Source of the DNA: Marinoscillum pacificum
Lineage (GTDB): Bacteria; Bacteroidota; Bacteroidia; Cytophagales; Cyclobacteriaceae
DNA length: 64,000 nt
Direction of reading: 5' to 3'
NCBI RefSeq assembly: GCF_024714495.1
Contig: NZ_JAMZMJ010000010.1
Span: 124,001 to 188,000, forward strand
Made by a program: the position numbers and the translations under genes
Shown here: positions 12,787 to 30,983 of the stretch, one piece after another
Layout: each line of letters starts with the position of its first letter
How positions within the stretch are numbered: the first letter of the stretch is position 1
Notes under the pieces: model-generated
Databases searched by the model: none
Told to the model about the DNA's origin: nothing
The model's input: the letters and a program-made list of their open reading frames with translations, nothing else

Positions 12787-13505
12787 TTGGCAGCCAACGC
12801 TTTTTCTGAAGAAGGAGCTAGCCCGTATTTAACCCACCCAAAATCGGGCTCCGACTGTAACGCCTTTTTGAATACAGTTAATGCCTTGTTATGGTCACCC
12901 ACTTTTTGACATGCCAATCCTAAGTGAGCCAAAGCGTCCAGGTACAGCCAATTATGCGTTGTATCACTTTTGTTTTCAAATAATTTTACACTTCGTTCAA
13001 ACTCCGTTACCGCCAGTTCAGGATCACCACCAAACATCTCTGGAGTGTACAACTTGGAGGTTGCATATAACTTCACAACTAAAGGATTATCACCATCCAT
13101 TCCATAGGCATCTGAAATAAGTGATGAACTTTTAGGCCCAAGAAACATTCCTTTGTAACTGTTATAGGCTAGCTCAAAACCGTATATAGACGATTTCAAG
13201 GCCTTACATTCAGCAATTTTTGTTTCTGAATCGATTAACTCATCCAAAAGATCGATTGTCTCATCGTAATAGCGATGAAAAGCTTCATCATCCATTTCTG
13301 ACAGGGTACTATTGAGAAAGCCATATTGAGCAAGTGCTCTCTCATATGAGCTTTCTGTGGATTGATCAATGACCCGCTGCCAAATAGTTTGACTATTAGA
13401 AACATACGCCTGATAGGTAGTAACATTCTGTGCAGTAGCACAGTAGGCACTTAAAAAAGCAACTCCAATACCTAATGCTGTAATAATTGTTTTTATTGAT
13501 TTCAT
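12783..13505 (-). CDS. Secreted TPR-repeat protein
   Basis: 240 residues. The signal peptide (about 1-26, ending ATAQ) suggests a periplasmic location. The C-terminal half holds TPR-like helices (WLYLDALAHLGLACQKVGDHNKALTVFKKAL is one unit, given in part). It is the first gene of a two-gene operon with the TonB-type receptor, whose start overlaps its stop. The gene is preceded by the 17-bp palindrome also found upstream of the winged-helix regulator operon, so it is likely controlled by that regulator. Confidence 0.8.
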   Translation of the reverse strand: MKSIKTIITALGIGVAFLSAYCATAQNVTTYQAYVSNSQTIWQRVIDQSTESSYERALAQYGFLNSTLSEMDDEAFHRYYDETIDLLDELIDSETKIAECKALKSSIYGFELAYNSYKGMFLGPKSSSLISDAYGMDGDNPLVVKLYATSKLYTPEMFGGDPELAVTEFERSVKLFENKSDTTHNWLYLDALAHLGLACQKVGDHNKALTVFKKALQSEPDFGWVKYGLAPSSEKALAAK

Positions 13506-13524
13506 GATTCTGATATTTGTAAAC

Positions 13525-13543
13525 TAGTTTATATTATAAACTA
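13525..13543. promoter_or_regulatory. Palindromic operator, copy 1
   Basis: AGTTTATATTATAAACT is a perfect 8-1-8 palindrome (13526-13542), extended to 9-1-9 by flanking T and A. The same 17 bases recur at 14431-14447. Here it sits about 20 bases upstream of the TPR gene start and overlaps a degenerate -7 box (TAGTTTAC on the reverse strand), a position suited to repression by the adjacent winged-helix protein. Confidence 0.75.
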
Positions 13544-13557
13544 TAAGGGTAAAAAAA

Positions 13558-13845
13558 TTATTCTATATATCCTTTCAAAGCATTTACATATGCCTCAAAG
13601 GCCTCAACTCCAGTCTTTGTTATTTTACACGTTGTAACAGGCTTTTTGCCTTTGAACGCCTTTTCCACTTCGATGTATTTCGCTTCGCTAAGTTTATCCA
13701 ACTGAACGCTTAAATTACCTGCAGTCGCTCCTGTTTTCTCTTTGATAAACGTAAACTCGGCAGATTCTACGCCTAGCAACAAACTCACTACGGCTAGCCT
13801 CAATTGTGAATGAAGCAATGGATCTAATGGCTTAAAACCACTCAT
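13558..13845 (-). CDS. Winged-helix transcriptional regulator (HTH_34-like)
   Basis: 95 residues forming a single winged-helix domain: LHSQLRLAVVSLLLGVESAE, the recognition helix TAGNLSVQLDKLSEAKYIEV, and a basic wing FKGKKPVTTCKITKTG. This matches the small stand-alone regulators with a PF13601-like winged helix in Bacteroidota. It is translated together with the upstream membrane protein (ATGA overlap). Two identical 17-bp palindromes, one ahead of its own operon and one ahead of the TPR/receptor operon, are the likely binding sites. There is no visible ligand domain, so the signal may come through the co-encoded membrane protein. Confidence 0.87.
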   Translation of the reverse strand: MSGFKPLDPLLHSQLRLAVVSLLLGVESAEFTFIKEKTGATAGNLSVQLDKLSEAKYIEVEKAFKGKKPVTTCKITKTGVEAFEAYVNALKGYIE

Positions 13846-14414
13846 TTCTCTTTTCCTTTTAGTAAATAACCAGGAATCAAATATCCTGCGAATATACCTA
13901 TTCCACCTACTAGATATTGATCAGTTATACTAACATTGAAGCAAATCACACTACTCAGTGCTAATAGCATGCCTCCTATTTTTAAAGGATTAAACTTCAA
14001 CATGCTCCCAGAAACAAATGTGCCTATAGCCGCCAACAATATGATCACCGCATTGTGATTATACCCCAGCTTATTCATGAACATCAGAATGATAATTAAA
14101 GCCACACCAATTGACATCCACACCTGACCATACAGTTTATCCAGATGACTGACAACAAGGGCTTTCCTTTTTTGTCGGATACCATATATAGCTGAAAAAA
14201 TCCCCGCCGGAATTGTCACTGCCCACACATAATAAGGGTGTGGATAATCCGTGTAAGCGTCCAAATAATAATGTGTTAAGTTAGCCACCATTACAACCCA
14301 ACCCCAAAGCAAGAAATAGAAACTTCCTCCCTTTTGGTAGTTACTTTTCGCCTGGCTTATCATGCTTGATATAAGCGCAAGGCTCTCTTTTTCAGATAAA
14401 TTCTTCTCAGTCAT
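13842..14414 (-). CDS. Integral membrane protein co-encoded with winged-helix regulator
   Basis: 190 residues. After a soluble N-terminal segment (about 1-28) there are five or six predicted membrane helices (for example YFLLWGWVVMVANLTHYYL and QVWMSIGVALIIILMFMN). It belongs to no family I can name with confidence. Pairs of a small winged-helix regulator and a membrane protein of this kind recur in Bacteroidota. The -7 box TATATTTG on the reverse strand ends only 4 bases before the ATG, so the transcript may be leaderless or nearly so. The palindromic operator lies directly upstream of that -7 box. Confidence 0.75.
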   Translation of the reverse strand: MTEKNLSEKESLALISSMISQAKSNYQKGGSFYFLLWGWVVMVANLTHYYLDAYTDYPHPYYVWAVTIPAGIFSAIYGIRQKRKALVVSHLDKLYGQVWMSIGVALIIILMFMNKLGYNHNAVIILLAAIGTFVSGSMLKFNPLKIGGMLLALSSVICFNVSITDQYLVGGIGIFAGYLIPGYLLKGKEK

Positions 14415-14418
14415 AGTT

Positions 14419-14426
14419 CAAATATA
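14419..14426 (-). promoter_or_regulatory. -7 promoter element of the regulator operon
   Basis: TATATTTG on the reverse strand matches TAnnTTTG. It ends 4 bases before the ATG, implying a very short or absent 5' leader. Confidence 0.55.
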
Positions 14427-14430
14427 ATTA

Positions 14431-14447
14431 AGTTTATATTATAAACT
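14431..14447. promoter_or_regulatory. Palindromic operator, copy 2
   Basis: AGTTTATATTATAAACT, identical to the copy at 13526-13542. It sits immediately upstream of the -7 box, between the expected -7 and -33 regions. Binding there would block RNA polymerase, which predicts autorepression of the operon. Confidence 0.75.
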
Positions 14448-14505
14448 ACTTTACACCATTAAAGGTTACGATTTCTCAACAATTTATCCTTTGATCTTAA
14501 CCAAT

Positions 14506-14532
14506 TACCGTAAATCGTCTACCGTAAATCGT
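14506..14532. repeat. Tandem 13-bp direct repeat
   Basis: TACCGTAAATCGT occurs twice, separated by one base, in the gene-free interval upstream of the small-RNA candidate. No function can be assigned. Confidence 0.6.
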
Positions 14533-14562
14533 AAATACAAACACTCCTGCACTACATATTCC

Positions 14563-14570
14563 TACTTTTG
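14563..14570 (+). promoter_or_regulatory. -7 promoter element of an intergenic transcript
   Basis: TACTTTTG matches TAnnTTTG on the forward strand in an interval with no annotated gene. A terminator on the same strand lies about 220 bases downstream, so the pair defines a possible transcription unit. Confidence 0.5.
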
Positions 14571-14648
14571 AAGAAACATTAACAAAAAGAAACATCAACA
14601 GAGCTTTATCCTAGATAGAATTTCAAAGACACATGAGATAAATCAGAG

Positions 14649-14726
14649 ATGTATAGAGCGAAGTTTAACCGATTAAAACAAGTAGGACGAGTTTTTGTCC
14701 TACTGTTTTCACAGCAGAAATTATAA
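14649..14726 (+). CDS. Possible 25-residue micro-protein
   Basis: An ATG-initiated ORF begins MYRAKFNRLKQVGRVF and ends LLFSQQKL. It is basic at the N-terminus with a short hydrophobic C-terminal part, like a small membrane-associated or leader peptide. It lies wholly inside the candidate intergenic transcript and overlaps its first hairpin. Coding is uncertain: the ORF is short and there is no clear ribosome-binding site. Conservation in relatives would decide it. Confidence 0.3.
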   Translation: MYRAKFNRLKQVGRVFVLLFSQQKL

Positions 14727-18940: not shown

Positions 18941-19990
18941 ATGATTAGAGTTGTCATTGTGGGCCTGGGTAATTGTTCAAGTTCATTCATTCAGGGAATA
19001 GAATTTTACAAAAACGAGCAAGAAACCAAGGGTTACGTAAGAAGGGAAATTGGTAACTACCTAATAAAAGACGTAAATGTTGTTGGAGCAATCGATGTAG
19101 ACAAACGTCTCATTGGCAAAGATGTTTCTGAAGCAATTTTTGCTGGAAGTAACACAGCTGAGAAATTTACAGATGTTCCTAATTATGGAGTAGAAGTAGT
19201 TAAAGGGCCAGTATTAGATGGTGTTGCTCCGCATATGCATAACTCCTTTCAGGTAGATGACAACCAACAACCAGTTGACGTAGCGGCATATCTTAAAGAA
19301 GTCGAGGCAGAATTTGTAATATGTTACTTACCTGTGGGTAGTGAAAAGGCTGCGAAATTCTACGCAGAAGAAGCATTGAAGGCAGGAGTAGGCTTTATCA
19401 ATGCAATCCCAGTATTTATTTGTTCTACCCCTGAGTGGAGCAACAAATTCAAGGAAGCAGGACTCGTTTGTGCTGGTGATGATATCAAATCTCAGTTTGG
19501 TGCTACCTACCTAAACAGAGTTTTAGTAGAAAGCTTAATGTACAGAGGATTCAATATCGACAATTTGTATCAACTAAATGTTGGTGGAAATACCGACTTT
19601 GAAAACATGATTGATGAGTCTAGACTTCAATCTAAACGTATCTCCAAAACATCAGCCGTATCCACTTTATTTAAAGAAGGTGAAGCGCCTGCATTGAGAA
19701 TAGGACCTAGTGACTATGTTCCTCACCTGAAAGATGCCAAAATCTGTTACATCAATGTAAATGGAACTCAATTTGGCAACCAGAAATTTGAGTTAGAACT
19801 AAAACTTAAAGTTGAGGATAGTCCCAATAGTGCTGGTGTAATGCTAGATGTAGTGAGATTAGCCAAAGTAGCGAAAGACAAAGGACTGTCAGGAAACATT
19901 CCTGTAGTATCTGCATTCGGATTTAAATCTCCAGCTGATAAATTCAGCGAAACTGATATCTTAAGAAAGATTGACGACTTCCTTTCTTAA
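18941..19990 (+). CDS. ino1: Inositol-3-phosphate (myo-inositol-1-phosphate) synthase
   Basis: 349 residues from the ATG at 18941. The frame is open upstream to 18875, but MIRVVIVGLGNCSSSFIQG is the natural start of the NAD-binding domain, so I use 18941. The enzyme isomerises glucose-6-phosphate to inositol phosphate, the first committed step to inositol lipids. The length fits the short prokaryotic/actinobacterial type. Family segments seen are GAIDVDKRLIGKD, CYLPVGSEKAA, GDDIKSQFGATYLNR and the lysine-rich region around SRLQSKRISKT. It converges on the serine palmitoyltransferase gene with a shared hairpin terminator and begins the putative inositol-sphingolipid locus. Confidence 0.92.
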   Translation: MIRVVIVGLGNCSSSFIQGIEFYKNEQETKGYVRREIGNYLIKDVNVVGAIDVDKRLIGKDVSEAIFAGSNTAEKFTDVPNYGVEVVKGPVLDGVAPHMHNSFQVDDNQQPVDVAAYLKEVEAEFVICYLPVGSEKAAKFYAEEALKAGVGFINAIPVFICSTPEWSNKFKEAGLVCAGDDIKSQFGATYLNRVLVESLMYRGFNIDNLYQLNVGGNTDFENMIDESRLQSKRISKTSAVSTLFKEGEAPALRIGPSDYVPHLKDAKICYINVNGTQFGNQKFELELKLKVEDSPNSAGVMLDVVRLAKVAKDKGLSGNIPVVSAFGFKSPADKFSETDILRKIDDFLS

Positions 19991-20010
19991 GTTGCTGTGC
20001 GCAACTTAAG
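19986..20010. terminator. Shared hairpin between ino1 and the serine palmitoyltransferase gene
   Basis: CTTAAGTTGC and GCAACTTAAG form a perfect 10-bp stem with a 5-base loop. The hairpin contains the stop codons of both convergent genes and is followed by ATTTT on the forward strand. It probably ends transcription in both directions. Confidence 0.7.
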
Positions 20011-21199
20011 ATTTTAATGGAATTTCTAATCTTTTGTATTCAGCATAAATTTTATGAATAGCCTCATCAATTTGCTCCTTTGAGTGAGTTGCCATGAGGC
20101 TAAATCGTATAAGTGTATCTTCAGGAGCTACTGCTGGAGAGATAATTGGATTGACAAAAACACCTTTTTCTAGAAGACTTGTAGTCAATTGAAAAGTCTT
20201 CATGTAATCACGAACATAAATAGGAATGATCGGAGACTCGGACGCTCCTGTATCGAACCCTAAGTCGCTTAAACTCTTCTGAGCATAGTGTGTATTCTCC
20301 CATAGCTTCAATCTGTGTGAATCATCTGACTCTATGATATCCAAAGCAGCCAAAGCAGCAGCACAAGATGGAGGCGTAATGCTTGCACTAAAAATCATTG
20401 ATCTTGAATGATGCTTCAAGAAATTAATGGTGTCACTATCACTAGCAATAAATCCGCCCAAAGACGCTAAAGATTTACTGAATGTACCTCCAATCAAATC
20501 GACCTTATCAGTAAGGCCAAAATGTGAAGGAGTTCCCGCGCCATGATCACCAATTACGCCCACAGCATGCGCACAGTCTGACATAACTACAGCTTCGTAT
20601 TTATCAGCTAGAGCGACTATTTCTGGAAGCCTGGCTAAATCACCTTCCATACTAAAGATACCATCTACTACAATCAGTTTAAAAGCATCTTTCGGACAAC
20701 GTTGGAGTTTCTTCTCCAACGACTCCATGTCATTATGTCTAAACTTGAGCTTATTTGCAAGAGATAATCTAGCACCTTCGATAATAGAAGCATGAACAAA
20801 CTCGTCCATGATGATAAAGTCATTTCGAGTAGTGATACAAGGAATAACACCCAGATTAACTTGAAAACCTGTACTGTACATCAGGACAGCTTCTTTCCCT
20901 AAAAACTTAGCAAGCCTATCTTCTAGTTCTTCATGGATATCTAACGTACCATTTAAGAAACGTGAACCTGCACAGCCAGCACCATACTTACTCATTGCCG
21001 CTCTTCCAGCCTCTACAACCTTAGGATGATTGGTAAGACCTAAATAACTGTTAGAGCCAAACATCAAAACATCCTTACCATTCACTTTTACGATGGTACC
21101 TTGTTCTGATTCAATTTTTCTAAAAAAAGGATAATAGCCTAGAGCTTTTACACGCTGTGGCTCCGTATATTGATTGGTTCGTTCCCGTAATCTACTCAT
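20006..21199 (-). CDS. spt: Serine palmitoyltransferase-type alpha-oxoamine synthase
   Basis: 397 residues from the ATG at 21199; an in-frame GTG at 21223 is possible, but the ATG start (MSRLRERTNQYTEPQRV) fits the usual N-terminus of Bacteroidota serine palmitoyltransferases. This PLP enzyme condenses serine with a long-chain acyl thioester to 3-ketosphinganine. The PLP lysine is in GGTFSKSLASLGG (about K242), the stacking His in DEFVHASII and the Asp/His of SDCAHAVG. FGSNSYLGLT and GCAGSRFLNGTLDIH match the serine-palmitoyltransferase branch rather than BioF or Kbl, and the sphingolipid-like neighbours support that. A related amino-acid specificity (glycine, alanine) cannot be excluded. Confidence 0.88.
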   Translation of the reverse strand: MSRLRERTNQYTEPQRVKALGYYPFFRKIESEQGTIVKVNGKDVLMFGSNSYLGLTNHPKVVEAGRAAMSKYGAGCAGSRFLNGTLDIHEELEDRLAKFLGKEAVLMYSTGFQVNLGVIPCITTRNDFIIMDEFVHASIIEGARLSLANKLKFRHNDMESLEKKLQRCPKDAFKLIVVDGIFSMEGDLARLPEIVALADKYEAVVMSDCAHAVGVIGDHGAGTPSHFGLTDKVDLIGGTFSKSLASLGGFIASDSDTINFLKHHSRSMIFSASITPPSCAAALAALDIIESDDSHRLKLWENTHYAQKSLSDLGFDTGASESPIIPIYVRDYMKTFQLTTSLLEKGVFVNPIISPAVAPEDTLIRFSLMATHSKEQIDEAIHKIYAEYKRLEIPLKS

Positions 21200-21298
21200 A
21201 CTTATATAAGTGGCAATTCCCACGTCTTCCTCCCCTACAGCTTAACCGAAGAAATCCACAAAACAGAAAATTAATTTGCAAATAAACATTAAATAAAC

Positions 21299-22033
21299 TC
21301 AAATATTAAGATTCAAAGAGTTCTTTAAATCTTCTGGATTGTCAACATCATTCCAAACACTTCCTACAACATCTACAGTAGTTGCTTCTTGGTCGTTAAT
21401 TAATTGACTAACCATATTCGATATGGTGTATTTCTTTTGATCAAAACACAATTTCAAAGTTTGAAATACTTGAGGCTTTAAAAAAAAAAGTCCAGTATCG
21501 TATCTATTATATACCTCAATCATCTTGCCTATTGATTGGATATGTCCTGCATCGTCCACCAAAACTCTAGTTACATCTTCAATATCGATATGCGAATTTT
21601 GTTCAGACGGAACATCTACCGCTAAACAGAGATGTTTATTCACTTTTCGGTTTTCAATTGCTTGTTGAAAAGCTGGTATAAAACCCTGATCAAACACATG
21701 ATCACCCATTGTAAGAAAAAATCCTTCTGATTTCTGTGACTTAATCCAATCCTCAGTGACACTCACTGAAAACCCATTTTCCAAATCATACCTTTCATTA
21801 TGAACTGCATCTATAAGCACATGATGCTTACCACGCAACTCTACTAACTTTTCACGAATAGGGTCTGGATTATGGCCCGTGACCACACAAAACTCTTTAC
21901 AGCCATTTTGCTTAAAGAGCATAATGTGTCGTTCCAAAAGAGAGATACCGTTAATTTCTAATAATGATTTAGGCTTACCTGTGTCTAGACGACTGTTTTT
22001 TCCAGCAGCAAGGATGACGCACTGATTGTTCAT
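21299..22033 (-). CDS. Nucleotidyltransferase, candidate CTP:inositol-1-phosphate cytidylyltransferase
   Basis: 244 residues with a single GT-A-type nucleotidyltransferase fold: the signature VILAAGKNSRLDTGKPKSL, the acidic GDHVFDQGF (metal site) and VDDAGHIQSIGK. The family uses CTP or another NTP to activate a phosphorylated alcohol such as phosphocholine, a sugar phosphate or inositol-1-phosphate. In archaea and some bacteria, an N-terminal domain like this fused to a CDP-alcohol phosphotransferase makes CDP-inositol. Here ino1 and a CDP-alcohol phosphotransferase are both near, which makes CDP-inositol the likeliest product (inference). It shares an orientation with the serine palmitoyltransferase gene, about 100 bases downstream of it. 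A good promoter sits almost at its start. Confidence 0.72.
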   Translation of the reverse strand: MNNQCVILAAGKNSRLDTGKPKSLLEINGISLLERHIMLFKQNGCKEFCVVTGHNPDPIREKLVELRGKHHVLIDAVHNERYDLENGFSVSVTEDWIKSQKSEGFFLTMGDHVFDQGFIPAFQQAIENRKVNKHLCLAVDVPSEQNSHIDIEDVTRVLVDDAGHIQSIGKMIEVYNRYDTGLFFLKPQVFQTLKLCFDQKKYTISNMVSQLINDQEATTVDVVGSVWNDVDNPEDLKNSLNLNI

Positions 22034-22120: not shown

Positions 22121-23242
22121 ATGAATTTTCAAATTTCAGAAGTCACCTCAAAATCTGATCTGAAAGCATTTATAAAATTCCCTTTCAAGCTATACAAGGG
22201 AGTATCTTCATATGTTCCTCCTTTGCTAAGTTTTGAACTTAGCACTCTGGACCCTAAGAAAAACCCAGCTTTTGAGCAGGCTAATGCCAAGTATTGGGTT
22301 GTTAAAAAGGACAAAGAGATTGTTGGCAGAATAGCAGGAATCTTATTACATCAAGAATTCGAGGAGAAGAAGTTAGTTCGTTTTGGATGGGTAGACTTTA
22401 TTGATGATAAAGAAGTTTTCACTTTACTCATGGATGCAGTCATTGAATGGGGGAAAAATCAAGGTGCCCAAAGCATGCATGGGCCTATGGGATTCACGGA
22501 TTTGGATTTTGAGGGAGCCTTAATTGAAGGCTTTGAACACACTGCTACACAGGCTACGATATACAATGCTCCCTACTATCAAAAACATTATGAAGATTTT
22601 GGATTTGAGAAAGCTGTAGACTGGATAGAAGGAAGAGGCAATATTCCAGGCAAAACTTCAAAAAAACTGGATCGAATAGCTTCTATTTGCGAAAGTAGAT
22701 TCAACCTGAAAGCTGTTAAATTCAAAAAAAACAAGGACATTAAACAATATGCTCCTGCCGTTTTTAACCTACTCAATAAATCATATAGTCATTTGTATGG
22801 CTACTATCCGTTATCTTCAAAACAGGTCGACTATTACATCAAACAATATTTTGATTTTATTAAGAAAGAGTTCATTAGCATAATAGTTAATGACCAACAT
22901 GAAGTTGTCGGAATGGCTATTGCCCTTCCCTCCATTTCGGAGGCATTAAAAAAAGCTAATGGTCATCTCTTTCCCTTTGGCTTTATTCACATTTTAAAAG
23001 ACTTTAATAAAAACACCTTGATGGATCTTTTCCTTATAGGTGTTGATCCTGAATATCAAAAACTAGGTGCTCATGCTATTATATTTAATGACATCCTTTC
23101 CAATTTTATTAAGTTAGGCGTCAATCAAATTGCGACAGGGCCGATGCTAGAAACTAATAACGGTGTCATGAATTTATGGCATGAATTTGATGCCGAGGCA
23201 ACTGGCACATTAAGGAGACGGTGTTACATCAAGAATATTTAA
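22121..23242 (+). CDS. GNAT-like acyltransferase, candidate bacterial ceramide synthase
   Basis: 373 residues. The middle and C-terminal parts have a GNAT-like character (residues about 240-365: IIVNDQHEVVGMAIALPS, FLIGVDPEYQKLGAHAII). A strong central segment begins at about residue 121 (GPMGFTDLDFEGALIEGFE) and continues with IYNAPYYQKHYEDFGFEKA. This pattern recalls the roughly 370-380-residue proteins that include the bacterial ceramide synthase of Caulobacter, which N-acylates (keto)sphinganine; I am comparing from memory. Position supports it: the serine palmitoyltransferase gene is close by, and a reductase, dehydratase, ketosynthase and ACP follow on the same strand, 11 bases or less apart. 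It could instead be another N-acyltransferase. Confidence 0.65.
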   Translation: MNFQISEVTSKSDLKAFIKFPFKLYKGVSSYVPPLLSFELSTLDPKKNPAFEQANAKYWVVKKDKEIVGRIAGILLHQEFEEKKLVRFGWVDFIDDKEVFTLLMDAVIEWGKNQGAQSMHGPMGFTDLDFEGALIEGFEHTATQATIYNAPYYQKHYEDFGFEKAVDWIEGRGNIPGKTSKKLDRIASICESRFNLKAVKFKKNKDIKQYAPAVFNLLNKSYSHLYGYYPLSSKQVDYYIKQYFDFIKKEFISIIVNDQHEVVGMAIALPSISEALKKANGHLFPFGFIHILKDFNKNTLMDLFLIGVDPEYQKLGAHAIIFNDILSNFIKLGVNQIATGPMLETNNGVMNLWHEFDAEATGTLRRRCYIKNI

Positions 23243-23253
23243 CTCATTCACAT

Positions 23254-24015
23254 ATGATAAAAAGAGCCTTGATTTTAGGCGGTTCAAGTGGTATAGGAAA
23301 AGCTACAGCAAAAAAGGTCGCCGCATCTTTTGATGAAATCATTATCGTTCATAGAGACAGGAAACAAGGAGTTTCCGAATTACATCAATTCACTGATGAA
23401 ATTTCATCAACCTACAATTGCACTTTTAAAACTTTCAATATTGACGCGACTGAGAAAGAAAAAGCTTTAGAGGTAGTAGGCAATGACACAGAACCTTTTC
23501 AATTGGTCCTGCATGCGATAACGAGAGGAAATCTTGGCAGCCTTGACATCACCAGTGATAAACCATTGAGAAGTGATGATCTAAAGCTAACAATGGATGC
23601 CATGTGCTTTAATGTACAAATGTGGAATGAAATCCTGGTCTCTTCTAAACTATTAACTTCAGAGAGTAGATTCATCACTCTAACATCAGAAGGAAGTACA
23701 AGATCATGGCCTGGCTATGGCGCGGTAGGTATGGCCAAATCATCACTCGAAACACTCACAAAATATTTGGCAGTGGAAATGAGCTCACACGGAATACGAT
23801 ACAATTGTATCCATGCTGGTGTGACAGATACCCCTTCATTGAGATTAATCCCTTCCTATAATGAATTGGTAGATTTTACAAAAAAGAGAAACCCTTATAA
23901 GCGACTTACTAAACCAGAGGATGTAGCGAACGCCATTTATTTATTAATTCAACCCGAAGCCAGCTGGATTAATGGTGCTGTTATTCATGTAGATGGAGGG
24001 GAACACCTTGTATAA
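23254..24015 (+). CDS. Short-chain dehydrogenase, FabL/FabI-like enoyl-ACP reductase candidate
   Basis: 253 residues from the ATG at 23254 (an earlier in-frame start would overlap the upstream gene and add a meaningless extension). The cofactor motif GGSSGIGKATAKK is clear. The catalytic pair is spaced Y-x6-K (YGAVGMAKSS), the spacing of enoyl-ACP reductases FabI and FabL, not Y-x3-K as in FabG. The end, INGAVIHVDGGEHLV, is also like FabL. Probable role: the last reduction in a dedicated acyl-chain extension. An alternative is reduction of 3-ketosphinganine or 3-ketoceramide, a step the locus otherwise lacks. It is directly followed by the dehydratase gene. Confidence 0.72.
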   Translation: MIKRALILGGSSGIGKATAKKVAASFDEIIIVHRDRKQGVSELHQFTDEISSTYNCTFKTFNIDATEKEKALEVVGNDTEPFQLVLHAITRGNLGSLDITSDKPLRSDDLKLTMDAMCFNVQMWNEILVSSKLLTSESRFITLTSEGSTRSWPGYGAVGMAKSSLETLTKYLAVEMSSHGIRYNCIHAGVTDTPSLRLIPSYNELVDFTKKRNPYKRLTKPEDVANAIYLLIQPEASWINGAVIHVDGGEHLV

Positions 24016-24016
24016 A

Positions 24017-24475
24017 ATGAAAGAGAAAATACCACAAATCCTTGAACTACTCCCCTACAGTGATCCATTCTTATTTGTGGATGAAATCAAAGAATTGGAT
24101 GAGTCCAGAATAATTGGCACGTATACCATTAAAAAAGATGAGCACTATTTCAGAGGACATTTTAAAGAGAAACCAATTGTTCCTGGAGTGATCATTACGG
24201 AAATCATGGCTCAAATAGGCTTGGTTTCATTTGGAATAGGATTGTTATTAAAACAATTTGATGAGCACCCTGAAAAAGGGAATAAAGAAATTCTACCAGT
24301 CTTCAGCAATTTTCACGTAGAGTTTGTGAATGCCGTTGGTCCAGGAGCTAAACTTACCATCGAGTCAAAAAAGGTCTTTTTTAGACTAGGTAAATTATTT
24401 TGCAAAGTAAAGTGTATGCACGAGGAGACCATTGTTGCTAGAGGTGAACTTGGTGGAGTGTTAATTAGTAAATAA
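24017..24475 (+). CDS. FabZ/FabA-like (hotdog) 3-hydroxyacyl-ACP dehydratase
   Basis: 152 residues from the ATG at 24017, one base past the stop of the reductase gene. The core has FRGHFKEKPIVPGVIITE then IMAQ, with the catalytic His (GHF) and Glu (ITEIMAQ) both present. The conserved HRxPFLLVD near the N-terminus is changed to YSDPFLFVDEI; that first His is not catalytic. It should dehydrate 3-hydroxyacyl-ACP in the small fatty-acid module; its ketosynthase starts at once after its stop. A different acyl specificity from the housekeeping FabZ is likely. Confidence 0.8.
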   Translation: MKEKIPQILELLPYSDPFLFVDEIKELDESRIIGTYTIKKDEHYFRGHFKEKPIVPGVIITEIMAQIGLVSFGIGLLLKQFDEHPEKGNKEILPVFSNFHVEFVNAVGPGAKLTIESKKVFFRLGKLFCKVKCMHEETIVARGELGGVLISK

Positions 24476-25756
24476 ATGAATCAAAAAAGAGTAGTAATTA
24501 CTGGGATGGGAGTAGTTGCTCCAAACGGAGTTGGTATTTCCGAATTTTCAGAAGCGTTATATAGAGGGAAATCAGGAATTAAATTCCAGGAGGACTCAGC
24601 CAATCAAAACTACAGATGTCAGGTGGCAGGAGTACCGACAGTTTCCGAAGAATACATTGATAAATATTTCCCCAATATTTACAAAGAAGTAATAAAAAAC
24701 AATGCCATCAAGTACGGGTGTTTAGCAGGCCTTGAAGCGTGGGCAAATGCGGGACTTTCACCTAGCAAAGAAAGAAAATCAAGATGGGGAATGGTATTTG
24801 GAGCTGGCGCTCCTGGTTTAGATGAATTTATCATTGACCCAATTGAGAAGCTAAATATTGGAAAGTCTAGAACGGTTGGCACCACTCTGGTTCCACAATC
24901 TATGACTAGCGGCACTGGGGCATACCTAAATCAACTTTTAGGATTAGGAGGCCCCGTAATCAGCAATTCATCTGCCTGCAGTACAGGGAGCGAAGCGATT
25001 TTAATAGGTTATGAACAAATACAATTAGGCAAAGCAGATATAATGCTGTGCGGAAGCACAGAAGGAATAGGTAGATTTATTTGGGGAGCGTTTGACACCA
25101 TGAGAATTCTCGTACCCAACTCAAATGACGCTCCAGAAAAAGCAAGCAAACCTATGAGTCAGAAATCATCTGGATTTGTACCGTCTGGAGGTGCTGGTAC
25201 TCTTATTCTGGAAACTTTGGAATCTGCACAAGCTAGAGGTGCTAACATACTAGCTGAATTAGTAGGTGTATCTCAAAACTGTGGTGGTCAGCGTAATGGA
25301 GGCTCTATGACTGCTCCAAATTCTGAAGCAGTTATTGAATGTATAAAATCTGCCATTAATCATGCCAATATTGATGCTTCCGAAATTGACTTAATATCTG
25401 GTCATCTTACTTCTACAATGGCAGATCCAATTGAAATCGAAAACTGGGTAACAGCACTAAATTTACCTCCTGATAAACTACCAGCAATCAATACTGTGAA
25501 GTCCATGATAGGTCACGCTATCTCAGCCGCTGGATCTATTGAATCTGTAGCTTGCATCATTCAGTTAACTGAAGGTTTCATTCATAAAAACATCAACATT
25601 GATGCCGATACCATACATGAGAAGATTAAGAATATTTACCCAATAGAGAAAATACCATTAGAAACTGAGCGAAGAGAAATTCAAACAATAATTAAGTCTA
25701 ATTTTGGATTCGGTGATGTAAATTGCTCGCTAATTTTCAGCAAATTCAAGCCGTAA
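24476..25756 (+). CDS. Beta-ketoacyl-ACP synthase (FabF/KAS II type)
   Basis: 426 residues, normal for a KAS II. It begins RVVITGMGVVAPNGVGI. The catalytic triad is intact: Cys in SNSSACSTGSEAI, the first His in SGHLTSTMADPIE and the second His in VKSMIGHAISAAG, with a late SNFGFGDVNCSL in place of the usual SFGFGGxN. It extends acyl-ACP with malonyl-ACP. The gene abuts the dehydratase and is followed 2 bases later by the acyl carrier protein, so a dedicated chain-building module is likely. The unusual GHLTST and GDVNC sequences suggest a divergent, specialised enzyme rather than the housekeeping FabF. Confidence 0.87.
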   Translation: MNQKRVVITGMGVVAPNGVGISEFSEALYRGKSGIKFQEDSANQNYRCQVAGVPTVSEEYIDKYFPNIYKEVIKNNAIKYGCLAGLEAWANAGLSPSKERKSRWGMVFGAGAPGLDEFIIDPIEKLNIGKSRTVGTTLVPQSMTSGTGAYLNQLLGLGGPVISNSSACSTGSEAILIGYEQIQLGKADIMLCGSTEGIGRFIWGAFDTMRILVPNSNDAPEKASKPMSQKSSGFVPSGGAGTLILETLESAQARGANILAELVGVSQNCGGQRNGGSMTAPNSEAVIECIKSAINHANIDASEIDLISGHLTSTMADPIEIENWVTALNLPPDKLPAINTVKSMIGHAISAAGSIESVACIIQLTEGFIHKNINIDADTIHEKIKNIYPIEKIPLETERREIQTIIKSNFGFGDVNCSLIFSKFKP

Positions 25757-25758
25757 TT

Positions 25759-26013
25759 ATGGAATTAAAAGAAATACAGGAGAAACTCACACCAATTATC
25801 AGTAAGTACTTACCTGATGAAGTAAAAGTAGAAGAAATCACTCCAGAAAAGGATATTCTGAAAGATTTACAAATTAACTCCGCTTATTTAATTGACATCA
25901 TTATTGCAATAGAAGAAGAATTTGATATTGCAATAGATGATGACTCCATTGCCAAGATAAACACCGTTCAGGAAGCAGTGGACGTTATTGTCAGCAAAAT
26001 AAATGAAAAGTAG
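25759..26013 (+). CDS. Acyl carrier protein of the small fatty-acid module
   Basis: 84 residues from the ATG at 25759 (the longer frame from 25723 would run into the ketosynthase gene). It is acidic and helical, with the phosphopantetheine attachment Ser expected in LQINSAYLIDIII, in place of the usual GADSLDTVE motif. The rest, EEEFDIAIDDDSIAKI, suits an ACP. It probably carries the intermediates of the reductase, dehydratase and ketosynthase encoded before it, or delivers the acyl chain to the ceramide synthase candidate. In Caulobacter a dedicated ACP lies in the sphingolipid locus, a parallel arrangement. Confidence 0.85.
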   Translation: MELKEIQEKLTPIISKYLPDEVKVEEITPEKDILKDLQINSAYLIDIIIAIEEEFDIAIDDDSIAKINTVQEAVDVIVSKINEK

Positions 26014-26031
26014 AAGGTGATTACTTTCTAC
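26010..26031. terminator. Bidirectional hairpin between ACP and delta-4 desaturase-like genes
   Basis: GTAGAAGGT and ACTTTCTAC pair over 9 bp (one G-U) with the loop GATT. It overlaps the stop codons of both convergent genes, and a short T-rich run follows on the reverse strand. Confidence 0.6.
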
Positions 26032-26954
26032 CTCTTCACCCGCGAATTCAACCCTATATTTTTCTGAGTAAGAAAGTGATAAATCACCTTCGTCCAGGAA
26101 TTGTAAGAATGCAATCCTTCATAATGCTTGCTGGCTTTTTCTCTCAAGACTGGCAATCTAGAACCTGGAACATTTGGAAAATCATGATGCTCATTGTGGT
26201 AGCCTACGTTGAAAACCAACTTATTTAATGGCCCATAATAGGAATATGTCTCCTGACCAGGCTTAGTAACATAGTGCTCAGACACAAAGTGACCACCCAA
26301 GGGATGAAGACCAGTTGCTAATATCACAGATAAAGCCATGTATAGCACACCTATCCAACCTACAAAATTCAGATACGTTAAAACAAAAATGATTTGGACC
26401 ACTAAGTTGACAAACTCCCATTTATTGGGTTTTCTTGGATAAACCATCAATGGCCGTAAAGCGTAAAAGAGAATCTGAAAAAACATCCAAATAAATTTCC
26501 CTACAAAACCTCTAAATAGCTTCGCTTCCAATCGTGTAGGAAGATCTGTATCAATTTTATCTTCTCCTTGTTTCCAATGGTGTTCAAGGTGATATGCTTT
26601 AAAAGCCATTGCAAATGGAAAAACCAAGGGCAGATTGACCAAAATGGCTAGCCAATTGTTTTTCGCTTCTGATTCAAAAGCAAGGTTATGGGATAATTCA
26701 TGAATGGCTAAAACCAGGATATGCACCAATGTAGTACCTACTAAAAACAACACTGCGATGAACCCCCAAATATTAGACGGCACATAAAATGACACTGCTA
26801 ACTGTAACAGTGAGACAAGCAAAACTTTGTACTTCAGACCAGCATCTATACCCATTAACTCCTTCACCTCAGGCACTTCTTTCAAAATCTGCTTTCTACG
26901 CTGAAAATGAGGCTCTCGTCCTTCCTCCCAAATGAAATCTTTAGTAGCTCCCAT
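26028..26954 (-). CDS. Sphingolipid delta-4 desaturase-like membrane protein (DEGS type)
   Basis: 308 residues. From memory it resembles eukaryotic dihydroceramide delta-4 desaturases (DEGS1) over nearly its full length. The N-terminal part DFIWEEGREPHFQRRKQIL echoes the DEGS start (DFEW..., RRREIL). The His boxes are HELSH (85-89), HLEHH (122-126) and HNEHH (253-257); the last is followed by DFPNVPGSRLP, with SYYGPLNKLVFNVGY before it, as in DEGS. Four to six membrane segments are expected. It would introduce the 4,5-double bond into a ceramide backbone, changing a dihydroceramide to a ceramide. Most bacterial sphingolipids are saturated, so this is notable. A -7 box lies 4 bases upstream of the ATG. 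Confidence 0.85.
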   Translation of the reverse strand: MGATKDFIWEEGREPHFQRRKQILKEVPEVKELMGIDAGLKYKVLLVSLLQLAVSFYVPSNIWGFIAVLFLVGTTLVHILVLAIHELSHNLAFESEAKNNWLAILVNLPLVFPFAMAFKAYHLEHHWKQGEDKIDTDLPTRLEAKLFRGFVGKFIWMFFQILFYALRPLMVYPRKPNKWEFVNLVVQIIFVLTYLNFVGWIGVLYMALSVILATGLHPLGGHFVSEHYVTKPGQETYSYYGPLNKLVFNVGYHNEHHDFPNVPGSRLPVLREKASKHYEGLHSYNSWTKVIYHFLTQKNIGLNSRVKR

Positions 26955-27117: not shown

Positions 27118-27990
27118 ATGCTTAGATACAAAGCCGATATTAAGACCTTAGTCTATCTAACTTTCACCTCATCCCTGATGCTGGTATTATTCTTTTATCA
27201 TGAGCAAATCCAATCTGCGATTTTGTGGATACTTTATGGTATAGAATTGGTTATGGCTATTACTGTGGGAGTTATTGTTCATAATCATCGCCATGTAAGC
27301 ATCTGGAAAAACAAAACCTTGAATAATCTCACGGACTGCTGGTTGACAGTTCTATACGGGTTCCCTGTATTTGGATGGATCCCCACTCATCTTCAGAACC
27401 ACCATACACATACCAACAAGGAACCAGATTATACGAAGACCTACGCATTCTCTGAAAAGAATAACTTATGGACTATCATTTACTATCCGATGTATAGTAG
27501 TGGGGTTCAACTGAAAGCTATCAGACGCTATCTTTCTGATTTGAGAACAAAAAATCGAGAAAAATTCATTGAACATATTTTCCAGATCATATCATTGGTT
27601 CTATTCGTTGTAGCTGCATTCATTATTGACTGGAAAGCGGCTATTCTCTTCGTGATAATCCCTCAACAAATCTCGCTCAACAGTGTATTAGTATTTAACT
27701 ACGTACAGCATATTCATGCAGATGAAGAATCAGAATACAATCACTCCAGAAATATAGAAGGCCCACTAAATACCTTCCTATTCAACAATGGACTGCATAC
27801 TGCGCATCACATAAAACCTCATCTACACTGGAGTCGTTTACCTGAATTTCATGCTGAAATCAGAGACAAAATCGATCCTAAATTGAATGAAAAAAGTCTG
27901 ATCTGGTATTTAATCAGGCAATACTTATTATCACCATTTAACTCTAAATGGTCTACTGTATCCATGCGCCTTACGCGTGAAAAAGTCTGA
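27118..27990 (+). CDS. Membrane fatty-acid desaturase/hydroxylase (copy 1)
   Basis: 290 residues with about four membrane helices and the three His clusters of membrane di-iron desaturases (PF00487-like): HNHRH (about 57-61), HLQNHHTHT, and a late NNGLHTAHH, with extra histidines HIHADE and YNHSRN between. The reaction is uncertain: either a double bond or a hydroxyl in a lipid chain, such as the 4-hydroxy group of phytosphingosine or the 2-hydroxy group of the N-acyl chain. It is followed 4 bases later by a paralogue. The two differ in the residues around the His boxes, so they may act on different positions or chains. Confidence 0.8.
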   Translation: MLRYKADIKTLVYLTFTSSLMLVLFFYHEQIQSAILWILYGIELVMAITVGVIVHNHRHVSIWKNKTLNNLTDCWLTVLYGFPVFGWIPTHLQNHHTHTNKEPDYTKTYAFSEKNNLWTIIYYPMYSSGVQLKAIRRYLSDLRTKNREKFIEHIFQIISLVLFVVAAFIIDWKAAILFVIIPQQISLNSVLVFNYVQHIHADEESEYNHSRNIEGPLNTFLFNNGLHTAHHIKPHLHWSRLPEFHAEIRDKIDPKLNEKSLIWYLIRQYLLSPFNSKWSTVSMRLTREKV

Positions 27991-27994
27991 TAAT

Positions 27995-28951
27995 ATGTTG
28001 AAATTAAAATATAAATCAGATCGCAAAACACTTGCAGCTGTTACCCTGTACTTTGTCAGCACAGGACTGATCTGGTACTATTTCCCTCAATTGCACATAG
28101 CACTTCAGATCTTTGCAGTTATTTTTTTATGTATGCTCTCCTTTATATGTGCTGTGATCGTTCATAACACGGTCCATGTACCTATATTTAGAAGTAAGCG
28201 AGCAAACAAGGTGTTCCAAATCGTACTTTCTATGACTTATGGATATCCTGTAAGTCCGTTTGTGATAGGTCATAACCTAAGTCATCATCAACACACAGGC
28301 AAAGATCAAGACATTGCCAGAACGGATAAGTTAAGGTTTAAGTGGAATTTTCTCAATCAAGCATTGTTCTTCTTTGTAACCTCTGACAGCATCATGAAAT
28401 CTGAATGGCTATGGATCAAAAAAATGTGGAAAGAAGATCGAAGAAGCTGGGTTATTCAATATTTCTTGGAACTGATTGGTGTAGGCTTAATTAAGATTCC
28501 TCTTTTATTTTTCAATTGGCCAGTGACGTTATTAACTATTTGGCTACCGCACTTATGGGCTCAGTGGGGCATCGTAGGAACTAACTTTTGGCAACATGAT
28601 GGCTGTGATGTTTATCATGAATATAATCACTCCAGAAATTTTACCAACAAGCTGTTAAACTTTCTGGTATTCAACAATGGGTACCATGGTTTGCATCACA
28701 ATAATGCAACGCTACACTGGAGTGAACTACCAGAAATATATGAGAAAGAATTTGCTCCAAACATTCATCCAAATCTAAATCGAAACTCTTTATTCATGTA
28801 TTTGTGGGAATCTTGCGGGTGGCCTGGAAAAAGACTAGACTATTTGGGAAACCCAGTCGTTTTAGATAAAAACAAACAGGAAGATAGCCTGGAGTGGATC
28901 AACCACAAGGATTACAAAAAGAACATTGAGCACTTAGGAGCCGAAGTTTAA
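27995..28951 (+). CDS. Membrane fatty-acid desaturase/hydroxylase (copy 2)
   Basis: 318 residues from the ATG at 27995 (a GTG at 27977 would run into the upstream gene). It is paralogous to the gene before it: matching His clusters are HNTVH, HNLSHHQHT and NNGYHGLHH, and the EYNHSRN and THLHWSELPE-type stretches recur in both. It has a longer C-terminal tail (about 40 residues, rich in charge). It belongs to the same membrane di-iron family and has the same uncertainty between desaturation and hydroxylation. It precedes the CDP-alcohol phosphotransferase by 7 bases, so it is probably in the same operon. Confidence 0.8.
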   Translation: MLKLKYKSDRKTLAAVTLYFVSTGLIWYYFPQLHIALQIFAVIFLCMLSFICAVIVHNTVHVPIFRSKRANKVFQIVLSMTYGYPVSPFVIGHNLSHHQHTGKDQDIARTDKLRFKWNFLNQALFFFVTSDSIMKSEWLWIKKMWKEDRRSWVIQYFLELIGVGLIKIPLLFFNWPVTLLTIWLPHLWAQWGIVGTNFWQHDGCDVYHEYNHSRNFTNKLLNFLVFNNGYHGLHHNNATLHWSELPEIYEKEFAPNIHPNLNRNSLFMYLWESCGWPGKRLDYLGNPVVLDKNKQEDSLEWINHKDYKKNIEHLGAEV

Positions 28952-28958
28952 CTAAATA

Positions 28959-29888
28959 ATGAGTCAATTGAATTTCATCAGTAGACATTATCAGGAAGTT
29001 TTAGCCTCGATTAAGCAAATAGATGTAGAAGAAACATTTGATCTGTACTTCAGTCGTTTTTTCGGTTTGTTATTTGCCAGGCTAGGAAAAACACTCAATC
29101 TAACACCTACTCACGTAAGTTTTTTAAGCTTGGGTTTTGGTGTTCCAGGAGGTATTTTGCTTTACTGGCAAACAGATGTTTGGATTATTGCAGTTGCTTG
29201 CTTTCTTATAACGCTTGCAGGAATACTAGATAGCGCAGATGGCCAACTAGCCAGGATGACAGGAACGTCAAGTGAATTTGGCAGAATGGTGGATGGCACT
29301 ATTGACAACATGGTATTCATGGCATGCTACTTCGCAGGAATTGCCTATTTCAAAGACATCTATGGCCTTCTTACCATAGTTGCTATTGCAGGAGCCTCAG
29401 GTTTTGTTCATAGTGTCAAGTCTGCCATCTATGAATTCTATAAATGTGAATACCAGGAATTGATGGAAAACAAAGAAGAAAGCAGTATTCCATACACTTC
29501 CAAAGAAGTAGAAATTCAGGGGAACCGATGGTACCATAAGGTGATCTATTATATTATCGTAGATTACACCAACAAGCAATTGAAGTTTATAACCAGAAGC
29601 ATTGCTCAGCGCAAATCCATGCGAGAACTCACTACCAACTCCGAAATTTCCCGACGATTTTTAGAGCGTTACAGAGATTACAATAAATCTATGCTTAGCT
29701 GGTGGGCTATTTTCTGCGGCACCAACACTCATAGAACTGCCATAATGGTCTGCTCCCTTTTTGGCAGAATAGATATTTATTTCATTGCCAGTGTTGCCTG
29801 GACCATTTTCATTATTCCTATTTCCTTAATTCAAGCGAAGAGAGACAAAGAGCTTCTTCAAGAATTTTCATTTCAGAACGCCGCTTAA
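28959..29888 (+). CDS. CDP-alcohol phosphotransferase, candidate inositol-phospholipid synthase
   Basis: 309 residues with the full CDP-alcohol phosphotransferase signature at about residues 91-116: D-x2-DG-x2-AR-x8-G-x3-D-x3-D, seen as DSADGQLARM followed by GRMVDGTID. The family couples a CDP-activated alcohol or lipid to a second alcohol. With ino1 and a likely cytidylyltransferase in the locus, two routes are possible: CDP-diacylglycerol plus inositol phosphate, or CDP-inositol plus ceramide. It is somewhat longer than simple phosphatidylinositol-phosphate synthases, with a hydrophilic insertion around residues 155-240. It is last in the forward operon; the next gene converges on it. Confidence 0.85.
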   Translation: MSQLNFISRHYQEVLASIKQIDVEETFDLYFSRFFGLLFARLGKTLNLTPTHVSFLSLGFGVPGGILLYWQTDVWIIAVACFLITLAGILDSADGQLARMTGTSSEFGRMVDGTIDNMVFMACYFAGIAYFKDIYGLLTIVAIAGASGFVHSVKSAIYEFYKCEYQELMENKEESSIPYTSKEVEIQGNRWYHKVIYYIIVDYTNKQLKFITRSIAQRKSMRELTTNSEISRRFLERYRDYNKSMLSWWAIFCGTNTHRTAIMVCSLFGRIDIYFIASVAWTIFIIPISLIQAKRDKELLQEFSFQNAA

Positions 29889-30983
29889 TTAAGATTTAGG
29901 TTTCAATACTGCATTGGAGGTCAGCTGACAAAAACCCTTTAAGCCTTTCATGATCGCTTTTGCTTTGGTGGCCTTAACAGTTCCTGGCTGATATTCTACT
30001 GACGCCTTCGTCATTGGATCCAGTACTCGATTTGCAAACTCATTGACAATTGCCCGATCTTCTGTAATCATCACAACCTCCTGCTCAAAGTGATAACTGA
30101 TTAAGTCATAATTACTACTTCCGAAAACAAGTTTATCACTGTCAATTAGAATAGCTTTCAAATGAAACATCCCAGGATGATGAAAGAGCTTAAAGAACCC
30201 TTTATTACTCTGTGAAAGGAGGTAATCAAAAAACAAGCCTTTATTATTCTCCTTTGGAGAGATAATACTCACTTCTACACCAGATTCCGCTATACTCTGA
30301 AGCACTGGAAGCAAAGGCTCTGATACATAAGGAGAAATAACAGTAATTTTTGATTGAGCTTGTCTAAGAATGTCAAAAAACTCCTCATACAGACTTTTAC
30401 TTCTCACTCCATTGAGAAAAAATAATTGATGCCCTTTAAGATTTTCCTTGAGTGACTGGTTTGAACCGTTCCAAGTGGTTAAAAAATCCGCTCGGATTGC
30501 TTTGCCTATGGAAAGATCCTCCATCTCAAGCATCATATCATGCCACTCAAAATTGTGATCGCTAAAGTTTATCCCACCCAAGTATGAGTATCTACCATCC
30601 ACCACCATCATCTTTTTATGATTTCGAAGCGGATATCGAAGCATCAATGGGCCTGTAGGATTCACAAACTTGACCTTTATCCCATTCGCTTCAGCTTTAG
30701 CTAACAACCTATATGTATTCTTTACTTCTCCCTTAAAGTTTGGATCTCTCAAATACTTCAGCCCAAAGACAAAGTGATCACTGACGACAGCTTTTGAAAA
30801 AGAATCAATTATGAGTCGCTTATCTCTTGCAGGGCTTTGCAGCATCAAATGAATTAACTCCTCCCCTGCCGCATCTCCTTCAAAAGTCATTGCTTGCACA
30901 TAAAGAGATTCTTTAGCTTCTTGAGCTCTAACACTCAATGCTGCCATAAATTCACTCGCTCCTATTAATATTTGTGACTTCAT
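29889..30983 (-). CDS. Phospholipase D-family synthase with two HKD motifs (cardiolipin-synthase-like)
   Basis: 364 residues with both HxKx4D motifs: NHKKMMVVDGRYSYLGGIN (first, about residue 122) and FHLKAILIDSDKLVFGSSN (second, about residue 275). It lacks the N-terminal membrane segments of typical bacterial cardiolipin synthases, so it is probably cytosolic or peripherally membrane-bound. The family transfers phosphatidyl groups between lipid and alcohol. A role in lipid headgroup exchange, possibly on sphingolipids, is suggested by the location but cannot be shown. It is transcribed towards the CDP-alcohol phosphotransferase gene with no intergenic gap and shares a divergent upstream region with the PimA-like gene. 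Confidence 0.82.
   Translation of the reverse strand: MKSQILIGASEFMAALSVRAQEAKESLYVQAMTFEGDAAGEELIHLMLQSPARDKRLIIDSFSKAVVSDHFVFGLKYLRDPNFKGEVKNTYRLLAKAEANGIKVKFVNPTGPLMLRYPLRNHKKMMVVDGRYSYLGGINFSDHNFEWHDMMLEMEDLSIGKAIRADFLTTWNGSNQSLKENLKGHQLFFLNGVRSKSLYEEFFDILRQAQSKITVISPYVSEPLLPVLQSIAESGVEVSIISPKENNKGLFFDYLLSQSNKGFFKLFHHPGMFHLKAILIDSDKLVFGSSNYDLISYHFEQEVVMITEDRAIVNEFANRVLDPMTKASVEYQPGTVKATKAKAIMKGLKGFCQLTSNAVLKPKS

Follow-up and report, generated by a model that had tools for sequence, protein, structure and literature searches.

A DEGS-type sphingolipid delta-4 desaturase homologue in a serine palmitoyltransferase and inositol-lipid gene cluster of Marinoscillum pacificum

Most accounts of bacterial sphingolipids present them as saturated dihydroceramides and treat the trans-4 double bond found in ceramide as a trait of eukaryotes. 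A gene of M. pacificum, here called DES, raises the question of whether a bacterium may carry the DEGS-type enzyme for that bond, and on which lipid such an enzyme would act. The gene was analysed within a stretch of 64,000 nucleotides of the genome, referred to below as the window:

26028 to 26954, minus strand: DES, DEGS-type sphingolipid delta-4 desaturase homologue, 308 aa (PF08557, PF00487, AlphaFold2 model, tree)

The open reading frame starts with the ATG at 26954 and ends with the stop codon at 26028-26030. Each of the motifs that the earlier note had listed as common to DES and DEGS-type enzymes was present in the translation, namely the N-terminal DFxW and RRxxIL patterns (DFIW, residues 6-9; RRKQIL, residues 19-24), the three His boxes (HELSH, 85-89; HLEHH, 122-126; HNEHH, 253-257), the SYYGPLN region (SYYGPLNKLVFNVGYHNEHHDFPN, residues 238-261) and the YNSW end (YNSWTKVIY, residues 284-292). 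Pfam searches detected the DEGS-specific N-terminal domain Lipid_DES (PF08557, E = 1.9e-12, 46.9 bits, cut-off 23) and the FA_desaturase domain (PF00487, E = 3.3e-28, 99.6 bits). Alignment with provisional sequences of human DEGS1 and DEGS2 and of the Drosophila and Arabidopsis DES enzymes was near-gapless over the whole length, at 43-47% identity. These E-values and the full-length alignment uphold the same note's claim that the similarity exceeds chance. The single NCBIfam match fell far under its cut-off, and a sequence search of the PDB returned no related chain. PF08557 was absent from all 14 control genomes, five of which contained the broader PF00487, and DES was the sole PF08557 protein among 11 PF00487 matches in its own genome.

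An AlphaFold2 model built from the family alignment reached a pLDDT of 90.4. The closest solved structures were of the chloroplast FtsHi motor complex subunit (Z 18.8), with AlkB at Z 14.3-14.8 (Z 14.8 over 242 residues) and stearoyl-CoA desaturase SCD1 at Z about 6.5. The only BFVD matches to the model were general fatty-acid desaturases of giant viruses. The predicted fold is that of a membrane desaturase/hydroxylase and is AlkB-like, and it does not settle the substrate; DES is probably a diiron membrane desaturase.

Five of the ten other PF00487 proteins of the same genome served as outgroup in a tree, in which all DES-like proteins fell together and the ordinary desaturases lay outside on very long branches. 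Grouping with ordinary fatty-acid desaturases had been named in advance as the result that would speak against the assignment, and DES did not cluster with those of its own genome. It fell instead in a clade with proteins of Myxococcota, Bacteroidota and Ignavibacteria and with eukaryotic DEGS. By profile, motif and tree, DES is a member of the DEGS family.

A second, careful tree of 48 rows, in which the root was not fixed, joined the window protein to that of L201 with support of 100/100. Both lie in group A, which comprises Bacteroidota, Balneolaceae and Ignavibacteria (100/99). Eukaryotes and Myxococcota formed a group (99/90), which makes Myxococcota the nearest bacterial neighbours of eukaryotic DEGS here; group A, Myxococcota and eukaryotic DEGS were united at 93/63 and separated from a further set of bacterial proteins, group B, at 100/99. 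The AU test rejected neither a position of the eukaryotes outside group A plus Myxococcota (p = 0.08) nor their union with group A (p = 0.089), and weakly rejected their union with group B (p = 0.039). The eukaryotic rows were only four (human DEGS1, DEGS2, Drosophila and Arabidopsis), entered as provisional, non-database sequences. Of these, human DEGS1 and Arabidopsis scored 74 and 66 bits to PF08557, and the DEGS1 row was partly verified, as GNCKAM(W) and MFANLPI agree with DEGS1 guide RNAs (PMC10140171). Because these rows are provisional and partly verified, we treat the placement of DES with eukaryotic DEGS as a strong lead. The union of eukaryotes with Myxococcota makes horizontal transfer or a bacterial origin of eukaryotic DEGS plausible, but the root is open and alternatives survive the AU test; the eukaryotic enzyme may stem from bacteria.

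A scan for relatives of DES covered about 85,000 species genomes and showed them to be encoded at more than 300 bacterial loci. The best 80 of 303 related stretches, which were retained, came from Saprospiraceae, Cyclobacteriaceae, Chitinophagaceae, Balneolaceae, Ignavibacteria and Myxococcota. The PF08557 family was found in 8 of 59 near relatives, which included only one of the five congeners searched. At the level of the phylum it was present in 40 of 395 genomes, and within class Bacteroidia in 32 of 325. On these counts it is a widespread, patchy bacterial family and not a peculiarity of the M. pacificum genome. Two bacterial clades can be told apart at one diagnostic position. The DEGS-type clade (Bacteroidota, Ignavibacteria, Myxococcota) has GHF, with GHF or GHY in Myxococcota, and the provisional eukaryotic sequences likewise have GHF. 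Group B has ARW or GRW; it is the larger and commoner bacterial form and often occurs in genomes without serine palmitoyltransferase (SPT), so its substrate may differ from that of the DEGS-type clade. Group B loci include L231-L253, L056-L083 and L133-L152, and are common in Chitinophagaceae. Recent transfer of DES was also considered from composition and left no sign, as its GC content of 39.1% matches that of the window (38.0 +/- 1.9%). Searches of viral contigs, phages and plasmids yielded no relatives, and thus no sign that DES is carried by phage or plasmid.

An SPT-like gene scoring 439-691 bits was present in all 28 genomes tested via group A or Myxococcota loci, where glycine C-acetyltransferase-type paralogues, at about 310-370 bits, set the level for comparison. 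The genomes of group B loci L066 and L073 and of the divergent L054 held paralogues of 340-360 bits only. Outside Bacteroidia an SPT-like paralogue of 440-510 bits is nearly universal, and SPT-like scores of 439-505 bits are common with or without DES; a loose NF047600 threshold caught the paralogue and failed there as a test of SPT presence. Co-occurrence therefore says little outside the class, and the test was redone inside it. Taking PF08557 against SPT at E <= 1e-140, SPT was found in 13 of 32 family-positive and 17 of 293 family-negative Bacteroidia genomes (Fisher p = 2.7e-7, the species not being independent). The classifiable positives were nearly all group B except that of the window, so this association speaks for the wider family; L231 (G750) represents a further divergent type. 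In the myxobacterial SPT-like proteins of L214-L217 the catalytic domain is preceded by roughly 150 additional N-terminal residues.

The genes around DES were annotated as follows.

18941 to 19990, plus strand: myo-inositol-phosphate synthase, MIPS (PF01658; TIGR03450, 370 bits)
20006 to 21223, minus strand: SPT (NF047600 SerpalmtaseCFB, 647 bits, curated cut-off 640)
21299 to 22033, minus strand: nucleotidyltransferase, candidate CDP-inositol synthase (NF041135, inositol-1-phosphate cytidylyltransferase domain, 129 bits, under cut-off)
22121 to 23242, plus strand: GNAT-fold protein, candidate ceramide synthase (N-acyltransferase) (PF00583, 27.8 bits)
23254 to 24015, plus strand: short-chain dehydrogenase (SDR), FabL/FabG-like, candidate ketoreductase (PF13561, 135 bits)
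23993 to 24475, plus strand: FabA/FabZ-like dehydratase (PF07977, 51.6 bits)
24476 to 25756, plus strand: beta-ketoacyl synthase (KAS), FabF-like (PF00109/PF02801)
25759 to 26013, plus strand: acyl carrier protein (ACP), 84 aa (PF00550, 30.5 bits)
27118 to 27990, plus strand: FAD2, second PF00487 desaturase/hydroxylase (99.4 bits, no PF08557)
27977 to 28951, plus strand: FAD3, third PF00487 desaturase/hydroxylase (92 bits, no PF08557)
28959 to 29888, plus strand: CDP-alcohol phosphatidyltransferase, candidate phosphoinositol head-group transferase (PF01066, 45 bits; NCBIfam archaetidylinositol phosphate synthase, 48 bits, under cut-off)
29889 to 30983, minus strand: phospholipase D/cardiolipin-synthase-like protein, PLD (PF13091), beside DES also in L003 and L007

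DES lies 4.8 kb from SPT, with the nucleotidyltransferase, GNAT protein, SDR, FabZ-like dehydratase, FabF-like synthase and ACP genes between them and MIPS on the far side of SPT. The SPT score, above the NF047600 cut-off, agrees with the sphingolipid locus that the earlier note had described. DES is outside any single operon with SPT, being opposite to the KAS-ACP genes and divergent from FAD2. The GNAT gene adjoins SPT or is near it also in Saprospiraceae, Balneolaceae, Aureispira and Myxococcota, and since it accompanies SPT across phyla, its product fits a bacterial ceramide synthase as a candidate. The ACP gene was below the size cut-off of the initial ORF list; homologues occupy the same place in L201, L055, L003 and L007 and in a second SPT cluster of the same genome (L202), which suggests an ACP dedicated to the SPT cluster. 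Bacteroidetes SPTs reportedly use acyl-CoA (PMC11324152).

In six genomes DES and SPT are no more than about 12 kb apart. DES accompanies the SPT cluster in the window, in L201/L002, from a second species of the window's genus, and in L003, L007 and L055; in L198 it lies about 11 kb from SPT. Gene order varies, with DES beside the PLD and CDP-alcohol genes in L003 and L007 and following the KAS-ACP end in L055, which shows that the association has outlived rearrangement. Elsewhere among the bacteria read, which make up most of the DEGS-type clade, DES stands alone with no conserved neighbours. No conserved neighbourhood was found beyond the window's family, and the evidence from linkage thus rests on Cyclobacteriaceae-like genomes. 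The same locus, with an SPT 88% identical, was seen in a MAG labelled 'Rickettsiales bacterium NP5' (L002/L085, PBTY01000022.1); the label is probably wrong, as the genome appears to belong in the window's genus. L003 and L007 both have a tandem duplication of the cluster's KAS gene (12087-14685).

These data bear on whether DES might be an ordinary fatty-acid desaturase, acting on the acyl chains of phospholipids and placed in a sphingolipid locus by chance. PF00487 is indeed the wider family, and the occurrence of group B relatives in genomes without SPT means that some of its members must have a different substrate. DES itself, however, carries PF08557, has GHF rather than the ARW/GRW of group B, and groups with eukaryotic DEGS in a clade separate from the PF00487 proteins of its own genome; its linkage to SPT outlasts changes of gene order, and an SPT-like gene was present in each genome of its clade that was tested. 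We regard such a role as highly improbable.

We hold with moderate confidence, on the evidence of sequence, that DES is a DEGS-family trans-4 desaturase acting on the sphingoid backbone that the neighbouring enzymes produce, either as dihydroceramide or in its inositol-phosphate form. We infer its regiochemistry and substrate, the order of the steps and the inositol head group along the following lines. The first reaction would be the condensation of serine and an acyl thioester by SPT. The acyl group might be carried by the ACP of the cluster, and its chain might have been modified by the cluster's KAS, dehydratase and reductase. A ketoreductase and the GNAT protein would then yield dihydroceramide, from which DES would remove hydrogens at C4 and C5 to give a trans-4 (sphingosine-type) ceramide. 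The desaturation could precede or follow attachment of the inositol phosphate head group. For that attachment, inositol phosphate would be converted to CDP-inositol, and the CDP-alcohol transferase would move inositol phosphate onto the lipid.

The main rival to trans-4 desaturation concerns the outcome at C4. Mammalian DEGS2 performs both desaturation and hydroxylation on one family scaffold, through a single radical intermediate that undergoes either rebound or a second hydrogen abstraction (PMC10140171). DES could likewise be a C4-hydroxylase or bifunctional, and its product would then be a phytosphingosine-type 4-hydroxy ceramide, in place of the trans-4 double bond or alongside it. Sequence alone does not decide the outcome. 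The third His box of DES reads GYHNEHHD, as in the provisional DEGS1, Drosophila and Arabidopsis sequences, whereas the provisional DEGS2 sequence has GYHVEHHD, which is a weak argument against hydroxylation. We consider the hydroxylase reading unlikely, though the most serious of the alternatives.

The second SPT cluster of the genome (L202 8001-12962; G000:C11, about 1141081) holds SPT, an epimerase-type SDR, a GNAT protein, KAS and ACP, with a phosphopantetheinyl transferase gene nearby, and over the stretch read it lacks both DES and inositol genes. The SPT of this second cluster is 65% identical to the DES-linked enzyme and falls under the NF047600 cut-off, so the cluster may make a different lipid class. 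With two SPT-type clusters, one could be a cysteate acyltransferase, and DES might then desaturate the capnine backbone of sulfonolipids, cysteate-derived sphingolipid analogues, and not dihydroceramide. The rosette-inducing factor RIF-2 is reported to have an alkene in its backbone. Among related Bacteroidota, Algoriphagus is one example of a sulfonolipid producer (PMC3463246, PMC7237790). It is the DES-linked SPT, however, that exceeds the cut-off, and the linked genes look phosphoinositol-type, a head group that a 1-sulfonate backbone cannot bear. A TIGR03844-type cysteate synthase was also missing from the genome (best score 19.7 bits, cut-off 325), although the model is archaeal and bacteria may use another enzyme that does not match it. 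The head-group genes and the missing TIGR03844 synthase make a sulfonolipid substrate less likely, and we give it a small chance.

FAD2 and FAD3 are adjacent to each other and divergent from DES; they are kept in L201, of the same genus, and missing beside DES in L003, L007 and L055. Both are candidates for acyl-chain hydroxylation of the sphingolipid. Their presence next to DES, together with the Caulobacter DesA-family enzyme that hydroxylates the amide-linked acyl chain (PMC11324152), invites the view that DES too modifies the N-linked fatty acid of ceramide, by 2-hydroxylation or acyl desaturation, like Caulobacter CC_0202. Caulobacter, though, has PF00487 and lacks PF08557, so the DEGS-type subfamily is unnecessary for that reaction, and FAD2 and FAD3, which lack PF08557, are better candidates than DES. 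We think such a role for DES very unlikely.

If DES acts as a trans-4 desaturase, some bacteria probably make 'eukaryote-like' unsaturated sphingolipids. With a DEGS-family enzyme encoded among bacterial SPT and inositol-lipid genes, the saturated-only and eukaryote-only views become testable in culturable bacteria. The GHF clade and its ARW/GRW sister clade offer a natural experiment on substrate specificity. Through the bacterial relatives the origin of the eukaryotic enzyme can also be approached, and since they are short and prokaryotic they might lend themselves to structure determination. A bolder proposal, which we put forward tentatively and think rather doubtful, is that bacteria of the clade make 4E-unsaturated inositol phosphoceramides by a true DEGS and that eukaryotic DEGS descends from a myxococcal-type bacterial gene; were it true, the eukaryotic trans-4 sphingolipid backbone would be a bacterial invention.

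The DEGS family and its Pfam model are already known, and bacterial members are presumably in sequence databases; the open-licence literature searched yielded no description of a DEGS homologue in bacteria or of such a gene linked to SPT. DES is a new bacterial branch of this known family. It shares with eukaryotic DEGS (human DEGS1/DEGS2, Drosophila ifc, Arabidopsis DES) the Lipid_DES domain, the His boxes and their spacing, the SYYGPLN...NVGYHNEHHDFP region, the GHF motif, length, full-length collinearity and tree placement. It differs in its bacterial host, where N-myristoylation and the ER/cytochrome b5 setting are not expected, and in its position in a bacterial SPT and inositol-lipid cluster. 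The DEGS-like proteins of Myxococcota (L045, L047, L050-L053) have the same motifs and are 46-50% identical to DES for the most part (L053, 44%); their genomes contain SPT-like genes, but without linkage to SPT within the stretches read. Group B proteins (Bacteroidota, Chitinophagaceae and others) share PF08557, PF00487, similar His boxes and about 40% identity, whereas [GA]RW replaces GHF, the C-terminus is often longer and many of the genomes have no SPT. Caulobacter CC_0202, a DesA-family sphingolipid acyl hydroxylase, is likewise a membrane enzyme of desaturase/hydroxylase type for bacterial sphingolipids (PMC11324152), but it acts on the amide-linked fatty acid, in an organism with no PF08557 match. 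Heaver et al. (2022) predicted a Bacteroidetes inositol-lipid pathway without a PIP intermediate (PMC9246714), in which MIPS, an NTP transferase and a CDP-alcohol phosphatidyltransferase are clustered, as in the DES locus. Here SPT and a DEGS homologue are joined to that set, and the saturated phosphoinositol dihydroceramide of Bacteroides would have an unsaturated counterpart.
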